Below are positions 7,772-25,303 of a stretch of 43,694 nt of DNA, piece after piece. The position numbers and the translations under genes were made by a program. Source of the DNA: Eudoraea sp. (lineage in GTDB: Bacteria > Bacteroidota > Bacteroidia > Flavobacteriales > Flavobacteriaceae); NCBI GenBank assembly GCA_024639765.1, contig JAHEHU010000018.1:2113-45806 (forward strand). The letters are read 5' to 3'. Positions within the stretch are counted from its first letter, which is position 1; every line of letters starts with the position of its first letter. The notes below the pieces were generated by a model. It saw nothing but the letters and a program-made list of their open reading frames with translations. It ran no database searches and was not told the origin of the DNA.

Positions 7772-7814
7772 TGATTTAAATCATATTTTAAGAACAAGGG
7801 TCAATGTAAATTTG
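7772..7814 (+). promoter_or_regulatory. FNR-type site and -7 element upstream of hemN
   Basis: TGATTTAAATCA at 7772-7783 is a perfect palindrome (the 14-mer including flanking A and T is also symmetric) of the FNR TGAT-N4-ATCA form. Exactly 23 bp follow before TAAATTTG at 7807-7814, a full TAnnTTTG -7 element. If transcription starts near 7818, the site is centred near -40.5, the class II activator position. No TTG -33 element is present at the usual spacing, consistent with activator dependence. The leader to ATG 7831 is about 13 nt. Confidence 0.75.
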
Positions 7815-7830: not shown

Positions 7831-9192
7831 ATGCCTAGTCTTATTCAAAAATATAATGTTCAGGGTCCTCGTTACACGAGCTATCCTACCGTGCCATATT
7901 GGGACATCAATTCTTTTTCAGGAAAAGCCTGGAAACAAACCCTGCAAAAAAGTTTTGAAGAAAGTAATGATATAGAAGGGATAAGTCTTTATATACATTT
8001 GCCTTATTGTGAAAGCATGTGCACCTTTTGCGGTTGCCATAAGCGCATCTCCAAAAGGCATGAGGTAGAAATGCCATATATTAAATCGGTATTAAAAGAA
8101 TGGCGGTTATACTGCGATCTTTTTCATACTAAACCCATAATTAAGGAATTACACCTTGGTGGAGGGACCCCTACCTTCTTTTCTCCGGAACATTTAAAGA
8201 TGTTGATCGATGGTATCTTTAGGCATGCAGAAAGATCCGATAAACACGAGTTTAGCTTTGAAGGGCATCCCAACAATACAAGCAGAGAGCACTTGCAAAC
8301 ATTATTCGATCTGGGATTCAGGCGCGTGAGTTATGGAGTTCAGGATTATAGTGAGAAAGTACAGAAGGCTATCCATAGGGTACAGCCATTTGAAAATGTG
8401 AAAAAAGTAACCGAATGGTCCAGGGAAATAGGGTACACCTCTGTGGGTCATGATATTATATTCGGACTTCCGCATCAAACAATTGAAGATATCAGAGAAA
8501 CTATTGACAAGACCAACCAATTAAGACCAGACAGGTTGGCATTTTATAGTTATGCCCATGTACCCTGGCTCAGAGGGAACGGTCAAAGAGGATTTAAAGA
8601 TGAAGATCTGCCCGGGGCGGAAGAAAAACGCCAACAATATGAGCTTGGGAAGGAATTATTGACCAAAGTAGGATATTATGAAATAGGGATGGATCATTTT
8701 GCACTCAAAAGCGATTCCCTCTACAAGGCATTTGAAACTGGTACTATGCACCGAAATTTTATGGGCTATACTAATTCTAAGACACAGTTAATGATAGGGT
8801 TGGGCGCTTCAAGTATCAGTGATAGCTGGTATAGTTTTGCACAAAATGTAAAAAGTCTGGAAGAGTACCAACATTTAGTAGACCATAACATTATCCCTAT
8901 CTATCGTGGACATCTGCTTTCTGAAGAGGATTTAATTATACGACGTCATATCCTAAATTTGATGTGCAGAATGGAAACTTCCTGGGAAGATGAAAGTCTT
9001 CAATTTAATGATTTGGAACTTGTCCTGGACCATTTATATGAAATGGAATTAGACGGCTTAGTCTATACTAAGAACAACAAACTGAGCGTTACAGAAGCAG
9101 GAAGGCCCTTTGTGCGCAATGTCTGTATGGCTTTTGATCTCTTAATGCATAGAAAAGCTCCGGAAAAAAGAGTATTTTCAATGACCATTTAA
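7831..9192 (+). CDS. hemN: Oxygen-independent coproporphyrinogen III oxidase HemN
   Basis: A 453-residue radical SAM enzyme. It decarboxylates coproporphyrinogen III to protoporphyrinogen IX without oxygen, so heme can be made under low oxygen. The cluster-binding motif CESMCTFCGC has Cys60, Cys64, Cys67 and Cys69, matching the true HemN pattern CxxxCxxCxC. LHLGGGTPTF near residue 110 is the SAM-binding region. The length matches E. coli HemN (about 457) and differs from HemW, a separate copy of which is encoded at 37511. An FNR-like site and -7 element lie just upstream, and a universal stress gene follows after 17 bp, so the two are likely co-transcribed. Confidence 0.95.
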   Translation: MPSLIQKYNVQGPRYTSYPTVPYWDINSFSGKAWKQTLQKSFEESNDIEGISLYIHLPYCESMCTFCGCHKRISKRHEVEMPYIKSVLKEWRLYCDLFHTKPIIKELHLGGGTPTFFSPEHLKMLIDGIFRHAERSDKHEFSFEGHPNNTSREHLQTLFDLGFRRVSYGVQDYSEKVQKAIHRVQPFENVKKVTEWSREIGYTSVGHDIIFGLPHQTIEDIRETIDKTNQLRPDRLAFYSYAHVPWLRGNGQRGFKDEDLPGAEEKRQQYELGKELLTKVGYYEIGMDHFALKSDSLYKAFETGTMHRNFMGYTNSKTQLMIGLGASSISDSWYSFAQNVKSLEEYQHLVDHNIIPIYRGHLLSEEDLIIRRHILNLMCRMETSWEDESLQFNDLELVLDHLYEMELDGLVYTKNNKLSVTEAGRPFVRNVCMAFDLLMHRKAPEKRVFSMTI

Positions 9193-9209: not shown

Positions 9210-10031
9210 ATGAAAACAATTATCGTCCCAGTAGATTTCTCAGAACAATCCGAATATGCTCTTAAAGTAGCAGCATCGCTCGCCAAAAAGCAGAACTTGG
9301 AGATCATTGTACTTCACATGCTCGAGTTAAATGAGGCCTTGCTTACCTCTACAGAGGGTTTTCATCCAGAACAAACTGTTTTCTTGCTGAAACATGCTGA
9401 GAAACGATTAAATGAACATTTGAATAAGGATTACCTGAAAGGAGTAAAGATCACACCTGTTATCAAGCATTTTAAAGTTTTTGGTGAGGTAAATGATATT
9501 GCCGAAAAGCACAATGCCGACCTTATTGTGATGGGTTCTCATGGCAGCGATGGGTTAAAGGAGATATTTGTAGGGTCTAATGCTGAAAAGGTTGTTAGAC
9601 ATTCGGATGTGCCTGTTCTCGTTGTAAAGGATGAAATGAAGGATTTTAAAATAGACCATTTTGTTTTTGCCTGTAATTTCAAAGGGGAAAGCTTAGCCGC
9701 TTTCCAAAAAGCGCGCAAGTTTGCAGACTCTTTAGGAGCAACCTTACATATGGTGTATATAAACACCCCGGGAGATGATTTCTTAAGTAATAATGATTCT
9801 CATGAAAAGATCAACAAATATCTTGAAAAAGCCGGCGCCAATGTGAAAGTAAATATCTACAATGATTACAGCGTAGAAAAAGGAGTGCTAAATTTTAGTG
9901 AAAGCATCAATGCGGATCTTATCGGTATCCCTACCCATGGTAGGAAGGGACTATCACACTTCTTTATGGGTAGTATAGGAGAAGATATTACCAACCATTC
10001 CAAGATTCCGGTGATAACCTTTAAGATCTAA
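9210..10031 (+). CDS. Tandem universal stress protein (two UspA domains)
   Basis: A 273-residue cytoplasmic protein with two UspA domains, each beginning with a hydrophobic strand (IIVPVDFSEQSEYAL at residue 3). The first domain has the nucleotide-binding motif G-x2-G-x9-G-S (GSHGSDGLKEIFVGSNAE). The second has PTHGRKGLSHFFMGS, where the first glycine of the motif is replaced, so ATP binding there may be weaker. It is 17 bp downstream of hemN and is probably expressed with it from the FNR-type promoter. Tandem Usp proteins of this kind commonly accompany oxygen- and energy-stress regulons. A strong terminator follows. Confidence 0.88.
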   Translation: MKTIIVPVDFSEQSEYALKVAASLAKKQNLEIIVLHMLELNEALLTSTEGFHPEQTVFLLKHAEKRLNEHLNKDYLKGVKITPVIKHFKVFGEVNDIAEKHNADLIVMGSHGSDGLKEIFVGSNAEKVVRHSDVPVLVVKDEMKDFKIDHFVFACNFKGESLAAFQKARKFADSLGATLHMVYINTPGDDFLSNNDSHEKINKYLEKAGANVKVNIYNDYSVEKGVLNFSESINADLIGIPTHGRKGLSHFFMGSIGEDITNHSKIPVITFKI

Positions 10032-13435: not shown

Positions 13436-14707
13436 TTAATCGCGTTCAAATCGCTCATAGGCTGCTTTAGAAAGGGCTTCCCTATGATCTGGATGGGCTA
13501 TTGATATAAGGGCCTTGGCCCTTTGATGCAAGTTCATTCCAAACAGATTTACTACGCCATACTCGGTTGCAACATAATGTACATGAGCCCGGGTAGTGGT
13601 AACTCCTGCTCCCACCTTTAAAAGCGGTGTGATCTTAGAGATACCTTTTTTGGTTTGGGATGTAAATGCGAAAATAGGTTTTCCACCCCAGGATAATGAA
13701 GCCGCCCGGATAAAGTCCATTTGTCCTCCAACACCCGAAAATTGTTTAGTTCCAACACTATCTGCACAAATCTGCCCGGTAAGATCTATTTCTATGGCAC
13801 TGTTGATGGCAGTAACTTTTGGGTTTTGCAGGATCACATTGGTGTCATTAGTATAGGCTGCTTCCTTGAAATTAACGATAGGATTATCATCAACAAAGTC
13901 GTACAGGGCCTTGGTGCCTGAAGCAAAACAAGTTACAATTCTTCCTGATTTCAACGTTTTTTCTTCCCCGGTGATGACTCCCTTTTCAACGAGGGGAAGA
14001 AGTCCGTCCGAAAACATTTCTGTATGAATACCCAATCGTTTATGGCCATATAAATTGGTCAGCACGGCATTTGGGATGTTACCTATACCTAGTTGTAGCG
14101 TAGCACCATCTTCAATTAGTTCGGCCACATTTTTTCCGATCTGATGCTCAATTTCAGATATCTCAGCCATTTCATGTGTATGAAGCGGTTCATTCACCTC
14201 AATAGCCGCATTGATCTCGGAAAAGTGGATGATTCCATCGCCATGTGTTCTTGGTACCTGGGGATTGATCTGTGCAATGACCAATTTAGCTGTTTTTATA
14301 GCTGGCAAGGTTACATCTACAGATAAACCAAGAGAACAGTATCCATGTTTGTCCGGGAGGGACACCTGTATAATTGCTACGTCTAGTGGCAGTATATTCC
14401 TTCTGAAAAGCAGGTGAATTTCACTCAGAAAGATAGGGATATAGTCGCCTTTATTCGTATTTACTGCATTACGGACATTACCACCAACAAAGCAACTATT
14501 TATAGTGAATGCTTTGTTATAGGGAGGATTGGCATAATTAACTGTTCCTTCCGTGTGGATGGAGATAATCTCCACATTTTCCAATTCCTTATATCGTTCT
14601 GAAATAGCATTGATAAGTGTATTTGGGGTCATTGCGGCCCCTTGTAAAAAAATACGGTCACCAGATTTAACCAGGGAAGCCGCTTCCGTCTTTGAGACTA
14701 TCTTCAT
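13436..14707 (-). CDS. Acetyl-CoA hydrolase / 4-hydroxybutyrate CoA-transferase family protein
   Basis: A 423-residue class I CoA-transferase. GDRIFLQGAAMTPN near residue 16 is the N-terminal family motif, GIGNIPNAV near 207 the oxyanion loop, and Glu230 in IHTEMFSDG the residue expected to form the glutamyl-CoA thioester. GVGGQMDFIRAA near 325 is the second conserved block. It would move CoA between acetate and another carboxylic acid, or hydrolyse acetyl-CoA. It leads an operon with deoC, deoD and DUF1643. A TGAC-N4-GTCA palindrome at 14738-14749 lies 30 bp upstream of the start and may mark control by the Crp/Fnr regulator. Confidence 0.88.
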   Translation of the reverse strand: MKIVSKTEAASLVKSGDRIFLQGAAMTPNTLINAISERYKELENVEIISIHTEGTVNYANPPYNKAFTINSCFVGGNVRNAVNTNKGDYIPIFLSEIHLLFRRNILPLDVAIIQVSLPDKHGYCSLGLSVDVTLPAIKTAKLVIAQINPQVPRTHGDGIIHFSEINAAIEVNEPLHTHEMAEISEIEHQIGKNVAELIEDGATLQLGIGNIPNAVLTNLYGHKRLGIHTEMFSDGLLPLVEKGVITGEEKTLKSGRIVTCFASGTKALYDFVDDNPIVNFKEAAYTNDTNVILQNPKVTAINSAIEIDLTGQICADSVGTKQFSGVGGQMDFIRAASLSWGGKPIFAFTSQTKKGISKITPLLKVGAGVTTTRAHVHYVATEYGVVNLFGMNLHQRAKALISIAHPDHREALSKAAYERFERD

Positions 14708-14737: not shown

Positions 14738-14749
14738 TGACAAATGTCA
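14738..14749. promoter_or_regulatory. Candidate Crp/Fnr palindrome upstream of the CoA-transferase gene
   Basis: TGACAAATGTCA, the same TGAC-N4-GTCA form as the sites before ccoS and the second stress gene. Unlike those, no TAnnTTTG-like element lies 23 bp further on: that position is the ribosome binding region of the CoA-transferase gene. If functional it more likely overlaps the core promoter, which would suggest repression. Confidence 0.4.
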
Positions 14750-18509: not shown

Positions 18510-20711
18510 TTATTGGTTTTCTGATAAGAGTTGATCTGTTTCTTTTACTTTGATATCCGTACCTAATCGTTGCAGGTAGGCGATGAGCGCTACAATTTCT
18601 CGATCTTTCATTTCAATGAATTCCTCTCCATTTGCCTTGGCATTGGTTTTATTCTCCTCATAGCTTTTGGCAAAATCGGGATCAGAATAGAGATTCTTTT
18701 CTATGGTGAGCGCTTGTTCATTCATGGATGCTTCCGCATTGTTGATTTCCTCATCTGAATAAGGAACCCCCAGCGTTACCATGGCCCGCATCTTGTCCTG
18801 TACAGCACTGCGGTCGTGCTTGTTTTGTACCAGCCATTGATAGGCAGGCATGATAGACCCGGCAGACATACTTTGGGGATCGTACATGTGATTTAAATGC
18901 CAACTGTCTGAGTATTTTCCTCCAATTCTAAGTAGATCAGGGCCGGTACGCTTACTACCCCACAGGAAGGGGTGGTCGTATACAAATTCTCCTGCCTTGG
19001 CGTATTCACCATAGCGCTCCACTTCACTTCTGAAGGGGCGGACCATTTGTGAATGACAACCTACGCATCCCTCCCGTATATAAAGATCTCGTCCTTCCAA
19101 TTCTAAAGGGGTATACGGTTTAACACTGGTGATTGTAGGAATGTTCGATTTTACCAAAATGGTAGGAACAATTTGAATGATCCCTCCAATAAGGATGGCG
19201 ATGGTAGCTAAAATGGTTAATTGAATTGGCTTCCTTTCTAACCAGGTATGGAAGGTTTCCCCCACTGTACGTCTGCTAGAGACCCTTGTCAATGCCGGGG
19301 CTTCGGCCAGTTCATCCTCAACAGCACTACCCGAACGAACGGTAACCACAATGTTGTAAAGCATCACAATAAATCCAACAATGTATAAGGATCCACCAAT
19401 GGCGCGCATCCAGTACATGGGCATAATTTCGTTAACGGTTTCCAGGAAGTTACCATACACCAGGCTGCCATCCGGGTTAAAATCTTTCCACATCAGCGCC
19501 TGGGTAAATCCGGCGACATACATGGGCAGCGCATATAAGATGATTCCCAACGTGCCTATCCAGAAATGGAAATTGGCCATAGGGATTGAGAATAATCTGG
19601 TTTTGAACATTTTTGGCACCAGCCAATAGATCATCCCAAAAGCAAGGAATCCATTCCAGGCGAGGGCACCTACATGCACGTGAGCAATGATCCAGTCACT
19701 AAAGTGCGCTATGGCATTTACATTCTTAAGCGATAACATAGGCCCTTCAAAAGTGGCCATTCCGTAACCTGTAATGGCTACTACCATAAATTTTAACGTT
19801 GGATCTGTACGTACTTTATCCCATGCACCTCTCAGGGTTAACAGTCCGTTGATCATCCCTCCCCAGGAAGGGGCAATTAGCATGACGGAAAAGGCAACAC
19901 CTAAATTCTGAGCCCAGTCTGGCAAGGCCGTGTATAATAAGTGGTGCGGTCCTGCCCAGATATATATAAAAATAAGGGACCAAAAGTGTACTATGGAAAG
20001 GCGGTAGGAATAAATAGGCCTGTTGGCTGCCTTGGGAACAAAATAATACATAAGTCCCAGGAATGGCGTGGTAAGGAAAAAAGCCACCGCATTATGGCCA
20101 TACCACCATTGCACCAGCGCATCCTGAACCCCTGCGTACACAGAATAGCTCTTCAATGCACTAATTGGTAATTCTAGGCTGTTGAAAATATGAAGTACTG
20201 CTACAGTTACAAAAGTGGCCAGGTAAAACCATATGGCCACATATAAGTGTCGTTGCCGACGCTTGATCATCGTTCCTATGAGGTTCCAGCCAAAGGCTAC
20301 CCAAATCACAGCAATTGCCAGGTCAATGGGCCATTCCAGTTCTGCGTATTCCTTGGAAGTGGTATATCCCAATGGTAAGGTAATAGCTGCGGAAACAATG
20401 ATCGCCTGCCACCCCCAGAAATTTAGATTGCTGAGGAAATCACTGAACATTCTGGCTTTTAATAGTCTTTGGGTAGAATAGTAGACCCCGGCAAAGATGG
20501 CGTTCCCTACAAAAGCAAAAATGACTGCATTCGTGTGCAGAGGTCGTAACCTGCCAAAACTCAGCCATGATATTCCATCAGTGACGTTTGGAAATAAGAA
20601 CATAAAGGCCAATAAAAGACCTACCAACATGCCAATGATACCCCAGAATAGGGTAGCATATATAAATTTCTTTACGATCTGGTTATCGTAACTAAACTGC
20701 TGTACTTCCAT
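18510..20711 (-). CDS. ccoNO: Fused cbb3 oxidase subunits I and II (CcoN-CcoO)
   Basis: A 733-residue fusion. The N-terminal two thirds is the 12-helix subunit I: His in RPLHTNAV and in IIAHVHVGALAWNG bind hemes b and b3, and CuB ligands lie in WYGHNAVAFFLT and GPHHLLYTALP. The C-terminal third is the membrane-anchored monoheme cytochrome CcoO, with heme motif C549-VGC552-H553 and the MVRPF segment that follows it. This is the high-affinity oxygen-reducing core. Fusion of CcoN and CcoO is common in Bacteroidota and removes the need for equal expression of the two. It starts 2 bp after ccoS. Confidence 0.96.
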   Translation of the reverse strand: MEVQQFSYDNQIVKKFIYATLFWGIIGMLVGLLLAFMFLFPNVTDGISWLSFGRLRPLHTNAVIFAFVGNAIFAGVYYSTQRLLKARMFSDFLSNLNFWGWQAIIVSAAITLPLGYTTSKEYAELEWPIDLAIAVIWVAFGWNLIGTMIKRRQRHLYVAIWFYLATFVTVAVLHIFNSLELPISALKSYSVYAGVQDALVQWWYGHNAVAFFLTTPFLGLMYYFVPKAANRPIYSYRLSIVHFWSLIFIYIWAGPHHLLYTALPDWAQNLGVAFSVMLIAPSWGGMINGLLTLRGAWDKVRTDPTLKFMVVAITGYGMATFEGPMLSLKNVNAIAHFSDWIIAHVHVGALAWNGFLAFGMIYWLVPKMFKTRLFSIPMANFHFWIGTLGIILYALPMYVAGFTQALMWKDFNPDGSLVYGNFLETVNEIMPMYWMRAIGGSLYIVGFIVMLYNIVVTVRSGSAVEDELAEAPALTRVSSRRTVGETFHTWLERKPIQLTILATIAILIGGIIQIVPTILVKSNIPTITSVKPYTPLELEGRDLYIREGCVGCHSQMVRPFRSEVERYGEYAKAGEFVYDHPFLWGSKRTGPDLLRIGGKYSDSWHLNHMYDPQSMSAGSIMPAYQWLVQNKHDRSAVQDKMRAMVTLGVPYSDEEINNAEASMNEQALTIEKNLYSDPDFAKSYEENKTNAKANGEEFIEMKDREIVALIAYLQRLGTDIKVKETDQLLSENQ

Positions 20712-20713
20712 AA

Positions 20714-20929
20714 TTATGTTTGTTTTCTTTTAGAGATTGGTAATTCATTCTTGTCTTTCGGAAGGGTTTTGTTGCTTTTTTGTATAACAAGTTCATCTTC
20801 AAACAAAATGCGCACAGATGGCGTATAGGAATCATCATACTGGCCACTCTTAACTGAAAAGATAAAGGCTGCAAAAAAGACAACTGCTACCACAATGCTG
20901 ATAGTCAGTAACACATAAATAACACTCAT
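20714..20929 (-). CDS. ccoS: cbb3 oxidase maturation protein CcoS
   Basis: A 71-residue protein with one N-terminal helix ([20 protein letters not shown]) followed by the SVKSGQYDD segment, the CcoS signature. CcoS is needed for cofactor insertion into cbb3 oxidase. It is the first gene of the ccoS-NO-QP-GH run, with a TGAC-N4-GTCA site and -7-like element just upstream. Confidence 0.92.
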
Positions 20930-20948: not shown

Positions 20949-20991
20949 TAAAAGTAACGGTGCGTCTATCGCTAAAAAATGACATAAGTCA
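20949..20991 (-). promoter_or_regulatory. FNR-type site and -7 element upstream of ccoS-ccoNO operon
   Basis: On the minus strand TGACTTATGTCA (20991-20980) is followed by exactly 23 bp and then TACTTTTA (20956-20949), one base from TAnnTTTG. The implied transcription start near 20945 puts the site centre close to -40.5 and gives a leader of about 16 nt to ATG 20929. Spacing is identical to the hemN, ccoI and second stress-gene promoters. Confidence 0.72.
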
Positions 20992-20998
20992 GGTTTTA

Positions 20999-23374
20999 TT
21001 ATTTAATTTTCCTTCCGAGCAAATTCGTCGCCAGGGTGGTAAATGCTACAATACTTATGGAACTCAAGGGCATAAGGATAGCGGCAATTACAGGTTCTAA
21101 CTGGCCCGTAACGGCGAAATACAATCCAATAATATTATATAGAAGGGATAAGACAAAGCTTACTTTGATGATCTTTATGGCCTGTTTGGAGGCTCTGATA
21201 TACTGAGAGAGATAGGTAAACTTGCTTGCATCAAGGATGCCATCACAAGCAGGGGAGAATACATTTATATCCTCAGATATGGCAATCCCTACATTGCTTT
21301 GAGCAAGGGCGCCGGCGTCATTGAGTCCGTCTCCTACCATCATTACTTTTTTACCCTGATCCTGTAATTCCTTCACGAAAAAAAGTTTATCATCGGGTTT
21401 TTGATTGAAGTACATAGGTGTTAAACTTGGCAGTAAGGCTTCCAAACGATGTTTTTCACCTTCATGATCCCCCGAAAGCAGGGCAATTTCCATGGTCTTT
21501 TTTAGCGTTGTAATGAGCTCGGAAATACCCGGCCTGTATTGGTTTTGAAAAACAAAATGCCCCCTGTAATGTGTATTTGTACTGAGATGTACAATGGTTT
21601 GATCAGTGGGCTCTAAAACGCAATTATCAACAAATGAGGCCGAACCCAGTTTGAGTTCCTGATCTCCCTTACTGCTATATAGCCCCTGACCTATGTATTC
21701 CTGATAGTCATCCAGGGTTAGAATTTCTTGTTCTTTAAGAAGGTTGTATAAGGATCTGCTCAATGGGTGGTTAGACGCCCTCAACGTACTTTTCAATAAG
21801 GATTTTTCTTCTTCGCTTAGTACGGTGCCTTCATACACAATGGCGTCATGACTCCTTGTTGAAAGTGTTCCTGTTTTGTCAAAAATAGCCGTATTGATGG
21901 TTGCTAATTGTTCTATGACCGCTACATCTCTTAAGTAAAATTTCTTTTTACCAAAGATCCTAAGCATGTTCCCCAGTGTAAAAGGGGCCGCAAGAGCTAT
22001 GGCGCATGGGCAGGCTATGATAAGCACTGCAGTAAAGACATTCCACACTTTTGAGGGGTCATTAAAAATCCAAAATAAGCTGGCACTAAAGGCTATTAGT
22101 AATACGGTGATGGTAAAGCGTCTTCCGATACTATCTGTAAGGGTCTGAAAAGTACTTTCATTATTTTTATTGAATACCGCCTGGCTCCATAACTGGGTTA
22201 AATAGCTTTGAGATACATTTTTAAGAGCGCGCATTTCCATGGCGCCCAATAATTGCTTTCCGCCTGCAAATATCTTTTCACCTATTTCTTTTTTTACCGG
22301 TGTGGCCTCACCCGTTACAAAGCTGTAATCTATTTCCACAGGCCCTTTCTGAAGCAGCCCATCTACAGGGATCAGTTCTTCATGACGTATAAGTATCCTG
22401 TCTCCCTTCTTGATCTCATAGACCTGTATGGTCTCTTCTGTATCATTTTCCAGAAGGCGGGTTACTGCAATAGGGAAATAGGATTTATAATCTCTTTCGA
22501 ATGAAAGAAAAGCATAGGTCCTTTGTTGAAAATACCTTCCCAATAGCAAGAAAAAGATCAACCCGCTTAGGCTGTCAAAGAATCCGCTGCCCCAATCGAA
22601 TAAGATCTCCAGGGTACTTCTTATGAAAAGCACCATTATTCCCAAAGCAATGGGGACGTCTATATTAAGATGTCTGCTTCGCAGTCCTTTGTAGGCTGAG
22701 ATCAGATAATCCTTACCGGCATAAAAAACTACGGGCAGGGAAAAGAAGAACATCAGCCATCTGAAGAATGGTTTGTATTGATCTAACCAAAATTCAGTAA
22801 CCTCAAAATACTCCGGAAAAGAAAGGAACATAATATTGCCAAAGGCAAAACCTGCAACCCCCAGCTGATAGATCAGGGTTTTGTCCTGTTTTTTTTCCTT
22901 CCGGTCATAGTTCTCGAGAGATATGCTAGGTTCATATCCAATCCGTGAAAGTAGAAGCACCACTTCTTTCAAGGATATCCTGGTAGTTTCAAAGTTGATC
23001 CTCACGCTCTTTTTTGGAAAATCGACCTGCGACTGTAAAATTCCAGGAGCTATTTTATGCAAATTTTCCAGTATCCAAATACAGGAACTACAATGGATAG
23101 CAGGAATAAAAAGATTTATGATCTGATATTGACCATCATTGAACTCCAATAATTTTTCAGCTATGGAGGGAGTTTCCAGATAGTCGTATTTGCCTTGTGT
23201 AATATTAGGAGTGCTACCGGCTTCTGCCTGTAATTCATAATAATAGGTAAGATCGTGTTCTTCAAAGATCTCGTAAACGGTTTTACAACCATGACAACAA
23301 AAGGATTTATCCTTATAGGCAATGATTTGATCATCACAAGGATCACCGCAGTGGTAGCAGTTTGTGTTATCCAT
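20999..23374 (-). CDS. ccoI: Copper-type P1B ATPase CcoI/FixI
   Basis: A 791-residue heavy-metal ATPase. The N-terminus has a Cys-rich domain (CYHCGDPC and CCHGC, residues 6-30) and a metal-binding domain with CSSC at 95-98. Eight membrane helices follow, with the CPC metal site in IIACPCAIALAAPF, then the phosphorylation motif DKTGTLS, the SNHPLSRSL His-Pro motif and GDGLNDAGALAQS. This is the layout of FixI/CcoI, which exports copper for the CuB site of cbb3 oxidase. It precedes ccoS on the same strand with a 69-bp gap containing a separate promoter. Its own FNR-type site lies at 23428-23439. Confidence 0.95.
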   Translation of the reverse strand: MDNTNCYHCGDPCDDQIIAYKDKSFCCHGCKTVYEIFEEHDLTYYYELQAEAGSTPNITQGKYDYLETPSIAEKLLEFNDGQYQIINLFIPAIHCSSCIWILENLHKIAPGILQSQVDFPKKSVRINFETTRISLKEVVLLLSRIGYEPSISLENYDRKEKKQDKTLIYQLGVAGFAFGNIMFLSFPEYFEVTEFWLDQYKPFFRWLMFFFSLPVVFYAGKDYLISAYKGLRSRHLNIDVPIALGIMVLFIRSTLEILFDWGSGFFDSLSGLIFFLLLGRYFQQRTYAFLSFERDYKSYFPIAVTRLLENDTEETIQVYEIKKGDRILIRHEELIPVDGLLQKGPVEIDYSFVTGEATPVKKEIGEKIFAGGKQLLGAMEMRALKNVSQSYLTQLWSQAVFNKNNESTFQTLTDSIGRRFTITVLLIAFSASLFWIFNDPSKVWNVFTAVLIIACPCAIALAAPFTLGNMLRIFGKKKFYLRDVAVIEQLATINTAIFDKTGTLSTRSHDAIVYEGTVLSEEEKSLLKSTLRASNHPLSRSLYNLLKEQEILTLDDYQEYIGQGLYSSKGDQELKLGSASFVDNCVLEPTDQTIVHLSTNTHYRGHFVFQNQYRPGISELITTLKKTMEIALLSGDHEGEKHRLEALLPSLTPMYFNQKPDDKLFFVKELQDQGKKVMMVGDGLNDAGALAQSNVGIAISEDINVFSPACDGILDASKFTYLSQYIRASKQAIKIIKVSFVLSLLYNIIGLYFAVTGQLEPVIAAILMPLSSISIVAFTTLATNLLGRKIK

Positions 23375-23396: not shown

Positions 23397-23439
23397 CAAA
23401 GATGCTCTCACCAGATTTGATAAAATATGATTTTAGTCA
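23397..23439 (-). promoter_or_regulatory. FNR-type site and -7 element upstream of ccoI
   Basis: On the minus strand TGACTAAAATCA (23439-23428), an imperfect TGA-N6-TCA palindrome, is followed by exactly 23 bp and then CATCTTTG (23404-23397), one base from TAnnTTTG. The leader to ATG 23374 would be about 19 nt. It lies in the 186-bp gap shared with the divergent regulator gene. Confidence 0.62.
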
Positions 23440-23560
23440 GTTTTCCAATTCGATGCCTAATAGCGGTTACTAAAAGTCCTATTAAATCATCGTAAAATCA
23501 GTGAAAAGCTATGGACAGGTCTTCAAATTATATTAATTTAGATGCTGTAATTCTTATCGG

Positions 23561-24250
23561 ATGAAAAATAGATGTGAAAACTGTATTGTAAGACAATTTA
23601 ATTCTTTGCGTGCGATGAGTAAAGAAGAATTAAAGCGTGTTTCCGATTCGAAGACCACGAAGTCTATTAAAAAAGGACAATCTATTTTTGAGGAAGGGGA
23701 AAAGCTAAATGGTGTTTTCTGTGTTCGTGAAGGAGTATCTAAACTTTCCAAATTAAGTGCCAACGGGAAAGATCAAATCGTAAAATTGGCAAGTAAGGGA
23801 GAGGTCATGGGGCAGCGATCTGTAATTGCTGAAGAATCTTCTAATCTAAGTGCTGTGGCCGTCAGTGATATGGAAGTATGTTTTATTCCTAAGGAAGGTA
23901 TTGTAGATACATTGCACAAGAATCCTGATTTTACCGTGGAAGTGTTAAGGCATATGGCACACGATCTGCGAGAGGCTGATGATGTGATCGTAAATATGTC
24001 ACAAAAATCAGTAAAACAGCGAGTTGCCGAGGCTTTCCTATATCTTGGTGAGAATTTCGGAGAAGATAAAGAAGGTTACCTCAGTGTAACTCTCTCCAGG
24101 GAAGATATTGCGAATGTTGTGGGTACGGCTACGGAGTCTTGTATCCGGATCATTTCCGAATTTAAAAAGAAGGGCCTCATCAAAACCTCGGGTAAAAAGA
24201 TTGGTATTGCCAACGAAAAAAAACTCCGCGATCTGGTTGAAGGTTTTTAA
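23561..24250 (+). CDS. Crp/Fnr-family transcriptional regulator, probable oxygen sensor
   Basis: A 229-residue regulator with an N-terminal cyclic-nucleotide-like beta barrel (residues about 20-130), a dimer helix (DFTVEVLRHMAHDLREADD) and a C-terminal helix-turn-helix (SREDIANVVGTATESCIRII). In the recognition helix Glu192 and Arg196 match FNR Glu209 and Arg213, which read TGA; FNR Ser212 is Ile195 here. Cysteines are at 5, 8, 54, 107 and 194. Cys5/Cys8 (CENC) and Cys107 match three of the four E. coli FNR cluster ligands, the third N-terminal Cys is missing, and Cys54 is extra. It lies among the TGA-N6-TCA promoters of ccoI, ccoS, hemN and a stress gene, so it is the likely activator of all four. 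Confidence 0.88.
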   Translation: MKNRCENCIVRQFNSLRAMSKEELKRVSDSKTTKSIKKGQSIFEEGEKLNGVFCVREGVSKLSKLSANGKDQIVKLASKGEVMGQRSVIAEESSNLSAVAVSDMEVCFIPKEGIVDTLHKNPDFTVEVLRHMAHDLREADDVIVNMSQKSVKQRVAEAFLYLGENFGEDKEGYLSVTLSREDIANVVGTATESCIRIISEFKKKGLIKTSGKKIGIANEKKLRDLVEGF

Positions 24251-24332
24251 AAGCACCTACCCAATATTCCTGAGTTTCCAACAATTATATTTATATGAAC
24301 CAGCCTTCACAAATCTGAAAGGCACTATAAAC

Positions 24333-24375
24333 TGACAAAAGTCATTGTTTGGGGTTCCCTACGAGCCTACTTTTA
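24333..24375 (+). promoter_or_regulatory. FNR-type site and -7 element upstream of second stress gene
   Basis: TGACAAAAGTCA at 24333-24344, then exactly 23 bp, then TACTTTTA at 24368-24375, the same -7 variant as upstream of ccoS. The implied transcription start near 24379 gives a leader of about 22 nt to ATG 24401. Confidence 0.72.
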
Positions 24376-24400: not shown

Positions 24401-25303
24401 ATGAAGAATATTTTATTACCTACAGATTTCTCTGAAAACTCTTGGAACGCTATCAGGTATATTTTGGAATTGTACAAAGCGGAAACATGTACCTTTCATT
24501 TGTTGAACACCTATACGCCGGCAATTCCCAACAGTAGATTCATGGCCTCTAGCATACAACCGGGTATTATGGATGCCGGAAGTAAGGAAGCCTCTGTCAG
24601 AGGACTAAACAATATCCTAAAGCGTATTCAAAAGACTTTTAAGAATAAGAATCATAGTTTTAAAACCATATCCTCTTTTAGTCTTCTGATAGATGAAATA
24701 AAAGATGTTATTGATGAACAATCTATTGATCTTATTGTAACGGGAACAAAAGGTGCCTCAGGAATGGAAGAAGTATTTCTGGGTAGTAATACGGTGCGTA
24801 TTATAAAGGCGATCCGAAATTGTCCGGTCCTTACAATCCCTCAGGATTTTAACTATGTGCAGCCACAGGAGATCGTTTTTGCAACCGATTTTAAGCGGTA
24901 TTACAGCACATCAGAACTCATTCCTTTAATGGACCTGGCCAAAAGTTTTAAGGCCACCATCAGGATAGTGTATGTTCAGAATAAGATCAAGGCACTCTCT
25001 GAGGTGCAGCAATTTAATTTAAATATGTTAAGGAAATATTTTGGGGAGATCGATCACTATATACATACCGTATCAGAACTCAATTCTGTTTCCAAGACCC
25101 TTGAAGTGTTTGCAGATGAGCTGGACATTCACTTGCTGGCGATGCTGAATTACCACCATAGTTATATGGAACGGATCACCAGGGAGCCTGTTGTAAAACA
25201 AGTTGCCTTCCACACTCAGGTGCCTCTACTGGTTATTCCAGAATTGGGAATGAATGCCCCTGCCCATACTACAAAGGAAAATGAATACCAGGTCGTAAAA
25301 TGA
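24401..25303 (+). CDS. Tandem universal stress protein with a degenerate second domain
   Basis: A 300-residue protein with two UspA-like domains. The first starts ILLPTDFSENSWNAI and has the nucleotide motif G-x2-G-x9-G-S (GTKGASGMEEVFLGSNTV near residue 115). The second (from about residue 148, EIVFATDFKRYYS) ends in VPLLVIPE but has HSYMERITREPVVKQ where the glycine motif should be, so it probably does not bind ATP in the usual way. It follows the Crp/Fnr gene by 150 bp and has its own FNR-type promoter. It is a paralog in architecture of the hemN-linked stress protein at 9210 but the two are clearly diverged. Confidence 0.87.
   Translation: MKNILLPTDFSENSWNAIRYILELYKAETCTFHLLNTYTPAIPNSRFMASSIQPGIMDAGSKEASVRGLNNILKRIQKTFKNKNHSFKTISSFSLLIDEIKDVIDEQSIDLIVTGTKGASGMEEVFLGSNTVRIIKAIRNCPVLTIPQDFNYVQPQEIVFATDFKRYYSTSELIPLMDLAKSFKATIRIVYVQNKIKALSEVQQFNLNMLRKYFGEIDHYIHTVSELNSVSKTLEVFADELDIHLLAMLNYHHSYMERITREPVVKQVAFHTQVPLLVIPELGMNAPAHTTKENEYQVVK

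Follow-up and report, generated by a model that had tools for sequence, protein, structure and literature searches.

A Palindrome and a −7 Element 23 bp Apart Mark a Predicted Low-Oxygen Crp/Fnr Regulon in Eudoraea sp. and Related Flavobacteriaceae

Four Promoters of the Window Have the Same Layout

Why should four promoters in one stretch of DNA have the same rigid layout, and which protein reads it? The window analyzed here, i.e., the whole stretch of 43,694 nucleotides from contig JAHEHU010000018.1 of Eudoraea sp. (G000:C187:2113-45806; source assembly of 3.19 Mb in 225 contigs), contains the gene for a Crp/Fnr-family regulator at 23561 and four copies of a pattern described in an earlier note: a TGA-N6-TCA palindrome, a spacer of exactly 23 bp, and a −7 promoter element. 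All four pairs were recovered at the positions given below, the reported centre-to-centre distance of 33 bp was correct at each of them, and the −7 elements agreed with TAnnTTTG, the σA −7 sequence of Bacteroidota, at six of six positions in one site and at five of six in the other three. We consider it probable that this is a class II Crp/Fnr-dependent promoter of the Bacteroidota type, with the Fnr-like protein encoded at 23561 as the main reader and with activity at low oxygen.

7772..7783, + strand: predicted hemN activator site, palindrome TGATTTAAATCA (pattern scan)
7807..7814, + strand: hemN −7 element TAAATTTG, 6/6 consensus positions (whole site 7772-7814)
7831..9192, + strand: HemN-like radical-SAM coproporphyrinogen III oxidase, leading the unit; named by eye
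9210..10031, + strand: UspA-like universal stress protein, named by eye; 17 bp past hemN
18510-20711, − strand: ccoNO, after ccoS
20714..20929, − strand: CcoS-like protein of 71 amino acids, named by eye; start 19 nt past the −7 element
20949..20956, − strand: ccoS −7 element TACTTTTA, 5/6 consensus positions (whole site 20949-20991)
20980..20991, − strand: predicted ccoS-ccoN activator site, palindrome TGACTTATGTCA (pattern scan)
20999..23374, − strand: CcoI-like copper-transporting P-type ATPase, named by eye
23397..23404, − strand: ccoI −7 element CATCTTTG, 5/6 consensus positions (whole site 23397-23439)
23428..23439, − strand: predicted ccoI activator site, palindrome TGACTAAAATCA (pattern scan)
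23561..24250, + strand: Crp/Fnr-family regulator and candidate reader, cNMP_binding and HTH_Crp_2 (domain matches)
24333..24344, + strand: predicted second-usp activator site, palindrome TGACAAAAGTCA (pattern scan)
24368..24375, + strand: second usp −7 element TACTTTTA, 5/6 consensus positions (whole site 24333-24375)
24401..25303, + strand: UspA-like universal stress protein (second usp), named by eye; start 25 nt past the −7 element

The hemN start codon is located 16 nt past its −7 element, and hemN and the UspA-like gene at 9210..10031 probably share one transcript as a putative operon.

The Signal Lies in the Fixed Spacing

Within the window, the palindrome alone was hardly more frequent than by chance (20 copies found against 15.3 expected, a number reached by 8 of 100 shuffles), so the signal is the fixed spacing. 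When palindromes accompanied by a −7 element agreeing at five or more of six positions were counted, four were found at a spacer of 23 bp, whereas the remaining 30 spacers from 8 to 38 bp averaged 0.47, and none of 300 dinucleotide-preserving shuffles of the window reached four sites at any spacer. The search rule offered in the note, TGA-N6-TCA-N23-YANNTTTR, gave 39 matches in the own genome and two for the reversed control; the note had also asked whether the pattern occurs as often in shuffled sequence, and these counts, together with the window shuffles, say that it does not; at sequence level, the rule is well supported. With TANNTTTR and spacers of 8 to 38 bp, the same genome gave 110 matches, and among the 100 listed, 26 were at spacer 23, the other spacers having a mean of 2.5 and a maximum of 6. 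When TGAY-N4-RTCAT was searched in four other genomes at spacers of 12 to 32 bp, 57 of 78 matches were at spacer 23 and 8 at spacer 24. For 36 of the 39 own-genome sites, an open reading frame on the same strand starts at a distance of −30 to 450 bp, and for 25 it starts within 60 nt.

The sites are also kept in relatives, the closest named ones by the 23561 regulator being four Muriicola records (96–89% identical). Of 80 named relatives, 79 have a site with exactly 23 bp no more than 600 bp past fnr, and 64 have one at the ccoS place. At the ccoI place, i.e., in the 450 bp preceding fnr, 71 contain TGAY-N4-RTCA and 51 have YANNTTTR at 23 bp; these counts are position-based, whatever gene follows, and loci cut by contig ends count as misses. 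The letters of the spacer drift among relatives while its length of 23 bp stays.

Promoter Geometry

The class II activator position of Crp and FNR in Escherichia coli is −41.5, and the consensus of the flavobacterial σA promoter has TTG at −33. An excerpt of a published study (PMC9723704) places the flavobacterial σA box, TAnnTTTG, at −12 to −5; with 23 bp counted back from this box, the palindrome would span −47 to −36, its centre being −41.5. At sequence level, the class II Crp/Fnr position claimed in the note is well supported by this layout, which combines a spacer peak at 23 with a centre that would coincide with the class II position; the centre of −40.5 given there should be −41.5.

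A logo was then built from 117 of 130 rows, namely those outside genes whose fourth base is Y and whose ninth is R. The cores read TGAY/RTCA, T followed the proximal half-site in 104 of the 117 sites (89%), and the base preceding TGA was A in 59 (50%) and C in 44 (38%). The claim that these promoters do without a TTG −33 element stood, as TTG was flat along the spacer, with six or fewer occurrences at any offset, the logo being T-rich from about −33 to −30 without a TTG. Leaders, measured in nine genomes from the −7 element to the start codon, were 16–27 nt long in 66 of 116 cases and 60 nt or shorter in 92. A split of the site letters by regulator, with TGAC-N4-GTCA for Fnr and TGAT for the receiver-Crp fusion described below, had come from genome G020, where four of six good sites are of the TGAC-N4-GTCA kind; the letter counts failed to tell Fnr-only and fusion-only genomes apart, and such a split is therefore not claimed.

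The Regulator Encoded at 23561

The 23561 regulator belongs to the Crp/Fnr superfamily, with matches over cut-off to PF00027 (65 bits) and PF13545 (58.8 bits). Its residues 4-225 aligned with solved FNR chains (PDB 5e44, 5cvr, and 9qlt; E 1e-21 to 2e-22), which we take to be those of Aliivibrio fischeri FNR, labeled 'FNR type regulator' in the database. All 33 aligned orthologues share four cysteines, C5, C8, C54, and C107. Of these, C5 and C8 (a CxxC motif) and C107 align with cysteines of the solved chains that presumably bind the cluster. The place of the third N-terminal cysteine of FNR is taken by N14 (in at least 90% of the 33 orthologues), and C54 faces an alanine of FNR; the E. coli-type set, CxxC-x5-C at the N-terminus plus one cysteine in the barrel, is thus absent, and with C54 invariant the protein is not filed as an E. 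coli-type FNR. The recognition helix differs from ExxSR as well: it reads E192-S-C-I195-R196, where the FNR chains have ETISR, and its E, I, and R were invariant in the 33 orthologues. These features suggest a protein that may work like FNR and that would not be the textbook E. coli type.

The AlphaFold model had a predicted local distance difference test (pLDDT) score of 83.8, with residues 1-7 below 50. Structural matches placed cNMP-binding domains on top and the Crp/Fnr protein 2gau at rank 6, with FNR outside the 50 listed, a ranking that excludes nothing. In the predicted model, C54 lies in strand 51-57 and C107 in strand 104-110, and these strands are presumably neighbors, as in other barrels of the cNMP fold. 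Taking together the invariant cysteines, the FNR alignment, and the strand places, an iron–sulfur cluster on C5, C8, C54, and C107 is a good guess and no more.

Genes That Carry the Site

The first genes downstream of the sites were named by eye, a few of them by Pfam. In the own genome, they included ccoI, ccoS-ccoN, hemN-usp, and three more UspA genes (one of them in the window), along with genes for a ribosome hibernation factor (HPF), a sulfide:quinone-type reductase, a multiheme lipoprotein, an MscS channel, and FtsH. Sites were found on both arms of a divergent pyruvate/2-oxoacid:ferredoxin oxidoreductase locus, and before a ferredoxin gene, a zinc alcohol dehydrogenase, an MlaE-type permease, a DoxX-like protein, a DUF2267 protein, and a YgaP-like membrane protein; no function was named for the remaining first genes. 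As a judgement on gene content, this looks like a low-oxygen and dormancy set. According to an excerpt on Flavobacterium psychrophilum (PMC9723704), expression of the cbb3 oxidase and of heme synthesis goes up under oxygen limitation. At sequence level, the regulon is real, and the low-oxygen role that the note had given it agrees with both the gene list and the F. psychrophilum induction, while remaining a prediction.

Single-linkage BLAST grouping of the first genes gave nine families with the site in at least one genome where only the Fnr orthologue was found and at least one where only the fusion was found (groups 0, 1, 2, 3, 4, 5, 7, 11, and 17). Named by eye, these are usp, ccoS, the MlaE permease, a GVGP-type lipoprotein, a CBS protein, an STTG/RRMKRWDK protein, HPF, a ferredoxin-NADP-reductase-like protein, and a membrane protein of 94–96 amino acids. 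The regions compared for gene content were chosen mostly for palindrome quality and covered 39/39 sites of G000 (the own genome), 19/22 of G035, 24/30 of G015, 7/7 of G020, 16/27 of G016, 12/17 of G014, 4/13 of G032, 6/18 of G030, and 3/63 of G033. In group 10, ccoI is combined with another kind of cation ATPase from G035; this group was left uncounted as a shared family.

Candidate Readers of the Sites

Four HTH_Crp_2 proteins were found in the own genome, two with an SRVVxSR helix and two with an E(S/T)xIR helix. The owners of the latter are the 23561 regulator and a receiver-cNMP-HTH_Crp fusion of 358 amino acids encoded on contig C205, and the recognition helices of the fusion and the 23561 regulator are near-identical (GTATETAIRTLSEFKEEG and GTATESCIRIISEFKKKG, respectively). 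The fusion matched Response_reg with 105 bits and contained CDIMMP and TKPF motifs, and a gene for a PAS-HisKA-HATPase histidine kinase ends 32 bp before it (kinase and fusion together at L035, G000:C205, 7464-10276); in the own genome, a phospho-acceptor receiver and an adjacent histidine kinase are thus both present, as in a response-regulator system. The same contig carries four sites with the 23-bp spacer, at genes for UspA, MscS, DUF2267, and a protein of 130 amino acids. In the fusions read, the receiver Asp box was found in 16 of 16 and the E(S/T)xIR helix in 15, with ETLTR in L094.

The note had placed the regulon under the 23561 regulator. This held in part, since genomes G016 and G020, where no fusion was found, carry 27 and 7 sites, respectively, and is incomplete, the fusion being a second candidate reader. 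HTH_Crp_2 matches over cut-off in G016 and G020 were of the 23561 type and the SRVVVSR type only (two matches below cut-off in G020 were left unread); the 23561 type is thus the sole ExxIR-helix match over cut-off there, and it probably suffices in these genomes. Conversely, the fusion was found and no Fnr orthologue was found in G015 (30 sites against 1 control), G030 (18 against 5), and G035 (22 against 0). These three genomes thus likely have a reader that is not of the 23561 type, and the fusion is a candidate for it. G015 and G035 are near complete, and G030, which has two fusions, is 88% complete. Small Crp/Fnr paralogues of 204–211 amino acids with the helix RVETVIRA were observed in L127 (G015:C24:155799) and L260 (G035:C3:224747), and such a paralogue is a possible third reader of TGA half-sites.

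Sites and Regulators Across Genomes

In 60 related genomes, the site excess accompanied an Fnr orthologue or a receiver-Crp fusion. The classes below were set by hand from the matches listed, the weakest matches being unlisted. The Fnr class comprised best matches with at least 37% identity in a single-domain frame below 310 amino acids and reaching from residue 18 or earlier, and the fusion class comprised open frames of 340–390 amino acids, with the receiver box read in 16 loci; G028, with a match over 35-228, was assigned to the class with neither.

Both regulators, 11 genomes: 358 sites, 26 controls
Fnr only (no fusion found), 29 genomes: 503 sites, 98 controls
Fusion only, 3 genomes: 70 sites, 6 controls

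Genomes with any Crp/Fnr reader (n = 43) thus held 931 sites against 130 controls. A phylum survey of 148 genomes, for which the pattern was tighter than in the 60-genome count, gave 234 sites and 11 controls in 14 other genomes of the same family, 22 and 0 in two genomes of the same order, and 98 and 8 in 20 genomes of the same class; the counts fall steeply outside the family, and not to zero.

Proposed Mechanism and Its Alternatives

In the mechanism we propose, a Crp/Fnr-family dimer would bind TGAY-N4-RTCA, centred at −41.5, and contact the σA RNA polymerase, so that the activator contact would compensate for the missing −33 TTG while σA would read the −7 element TAnnTTTR. The 23-bp spacer would be rigid because activator and polymerase must share one DNA face at a fixed distance. 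The Fnr-like protein probably bears an oxygen-labile iron–sulfur cluster on its four invariant cysteines, and at low oxygen it would turn on high-affinity respiration, anaerobic heme synthesis, pyruvate:ferredoxin metabolism, and stress or dormancy genes.

Several observations weigh against this proposal. Where neither reader was found (17 genomes), there were still 78 sites against 38 controls. One of these genomes, G004, contributes 17 sites and 1 control, i.e., 16 of the class excess of 40, and its contig ends inside ccoI, where fnr is expected, and in G012, G018, and G031, which lack a found reader, no close ccoI was found either; the 16 genomes other than G004 nevertheless hold 61 sites against 37 controls. 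Some Fnr-only genomes are only modestly enriched (G010, 11 sites and 8 controls; G014, 17 and 7; G020, 7 and 3), and classes of the phylum other than the own gave 68 sites against 15 controls in 111 genomes, at 0.6 per genome, which is still above control. The Mann–Whitney p of 3e-8 for site totals against control over the 60 genomes comes without phylogenetic correction from genomes that are related and unequal in size, and because of this relatedness, the counts by regulator class are associations and not independent trials. Among the 39 own-genome sites, about two are expected by chance and two lie inside longer open reading frames. In 29 of the 80 relatives, the full pattern is missing from the ccoI place, and nine of these have no palindrome in the scanned stretch. 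Finally, part or all of the sites could be read by the receiver-Crp fusion, whose helix is nearly identical.

This last point leads to the alternatives. It is quite conceivable, at a little under even chances, that both proteins read one shared code, with oxygen (through the iron–sulfur cluster) and the kinase signal meeting at the same promoters, and that lineages can keep either reader; this is compatible with our proposal, which names the main reader only. The nine families shared between Fnr-only and fusion-only genomes and the near-identical helices speak for it, but the fusion-only genomes are three, two of them with an RVETVIRA paralogue and one 88% complete, the compared regions were hand-picked for good palindromes, and the code is predicted from sequence. 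Taken further, and as a tentative proposal, one code (TGAY-N4-RTCAT, 23 bp, TAnnTTTR) might serve two unlike sensors, namely a receiver-Crp fusion in its phosphorylated state and an iron–sulfur Fnr in which a β strand, instead of the N-terminal loop, supplies the fourth ligand. Lineages would retain either of these readers or the pair, the targets, i.e., high-affinity respiration and a DosR-like dormancy set, would persist, and the code would thus outlive its reader.

We consider it rather unlikely that the C205 fusion and its PAS kinase are the main reader, acting as a FixLJ/K-like two-component switch with the 23561 Fnr limited to a cco/hemN/usp subset. The four sites on the fusion contig, the helix near-identical to the 23561 type, the conserved receiver box and helix of the fusions, the sites kept in G015, G030, and G035, and the fact that genomes with both regulators have the most sites are all consistent with such a switch. 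However, nearly half of the genomes (29 of 60) have Fnr, no fusion found, and 503 sites against 98 controls, and in several of them the site precedes the same first genes; moreover, the RVETVIRA paralogue might be the reader in G015 and G035, and G030 is incomplete.

A strong constitutive σA subtype, or an alternative sigma element, working without any Crp/Fnr protein is disfavored and very improbable. An ordinary σA −7 element, the σA subclasses among F. psychrophilum motifs (excerpt of PMC9723704), and the small excess where no reader was found would fit it, but a 12-bp palindrome is no sigma element, and the excess is far larger in the 43 genomes with a reader. Chance, i.e., four lookalikes in an AT-rich window, draws on the scarcely enriched palindrome and was ruled out by the 0/300 shuffles, the 39 genome-wide matches against 2, and the site kept after fnr in 79/80 relatives.

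Comparison with Known Systems

Proteobacterial FNR/ANR regulons have class II sites at −41.5, and their targets are the cbb3 oxidase, HemN, and usp genes. HcpR, DNR, and NnrR are Crp/Fnr proteins of nitrosative stress, HcpR being found also in Bacteroides and Porphyromonas, and the FixLJ-FixK2 cascade controls cbb3. The promoters described here are like those of FNR/ANR in the predicted Crp/Fnr dimer, the palindrome with TGA/TCA cores, and the centre at −41.5, and unlike them in the Bacteroidota −7 type without a −35 element. An FNR/ANR-type box, TTGATnnnnATCAA, is given in an excerpt of PMC1274295; in contrast to TTGAT-N4-ATCAA, the outer TT/AA are not required here, and C or T stands beside the core. 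The 23561 regulator shares CxxC and C107 with the solved FNR chains (5e44, 5cvr, and 9qlt), but N14 and C54, and ExxIR for ExxSR in the helix, set it apart from these and from the E. coli type. For HcpR, the same excerpt predicts a TTGACnnnnGTCAA box for hcp genes of two cyanobacteria and, for gingivalis, lists hcp genes and nothing else (PMC1274295), whereas the set found here is wide, respiratory, and dormancy-like. As in the FixLJ-FixK2 cascade, named in an excerpt of PMC6710368, control would be kinase-driven through a Crp/Fnr protein, but here a single protein combines receiver and Crp. The −7 element and its position are shared with the flavobacterial σA promoter, while the activator site replaces the −33 TTG.

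Among the matches listed from the open-licence literature searched, no paper on this code or on a Flavobacteriaceae Fnr regulon was found. What seems to be new is how large and far-reaching the code is, together with the cysteine set, which departs from the standard one, and the probable second reader. The regulation by oxygen in Bacteroidota seems little charted in that literature; in an anammox-reactor study (excerpt of PMC8510549), the Crp/Fnr homologues of its Flavobacteriales genome were predicted to sense carbon. With a simple, testable DNA rule, a low-oxygen regulon can be predicted throughout a large family. The layout shows how a class II activator would be fitted to an unusual −7 promoter, and the analysis draws attention to cysteines that differ from the standard set and to a candidate second reader driven by a kinase.

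Additional Sites

On two contigs, back-to-back sites were observed between a LigD-polymerase-like gene and a second gene (L036, 8095-8232, and L045, 4596-4733), the latter having a weak sigma-70 region 4 match, below cut-off. In the window, a perfect palindrome, TGAC-N4-GTCA, was found at 14738-14749, which is absent from the list in the earlier note and has no −7 element at 23 bp. It is located 30 bp ahead of the start of an acetyl-CoA hydrolase/transferase-like gene (13436-14707, − strand) and is a possible repression or class I site.
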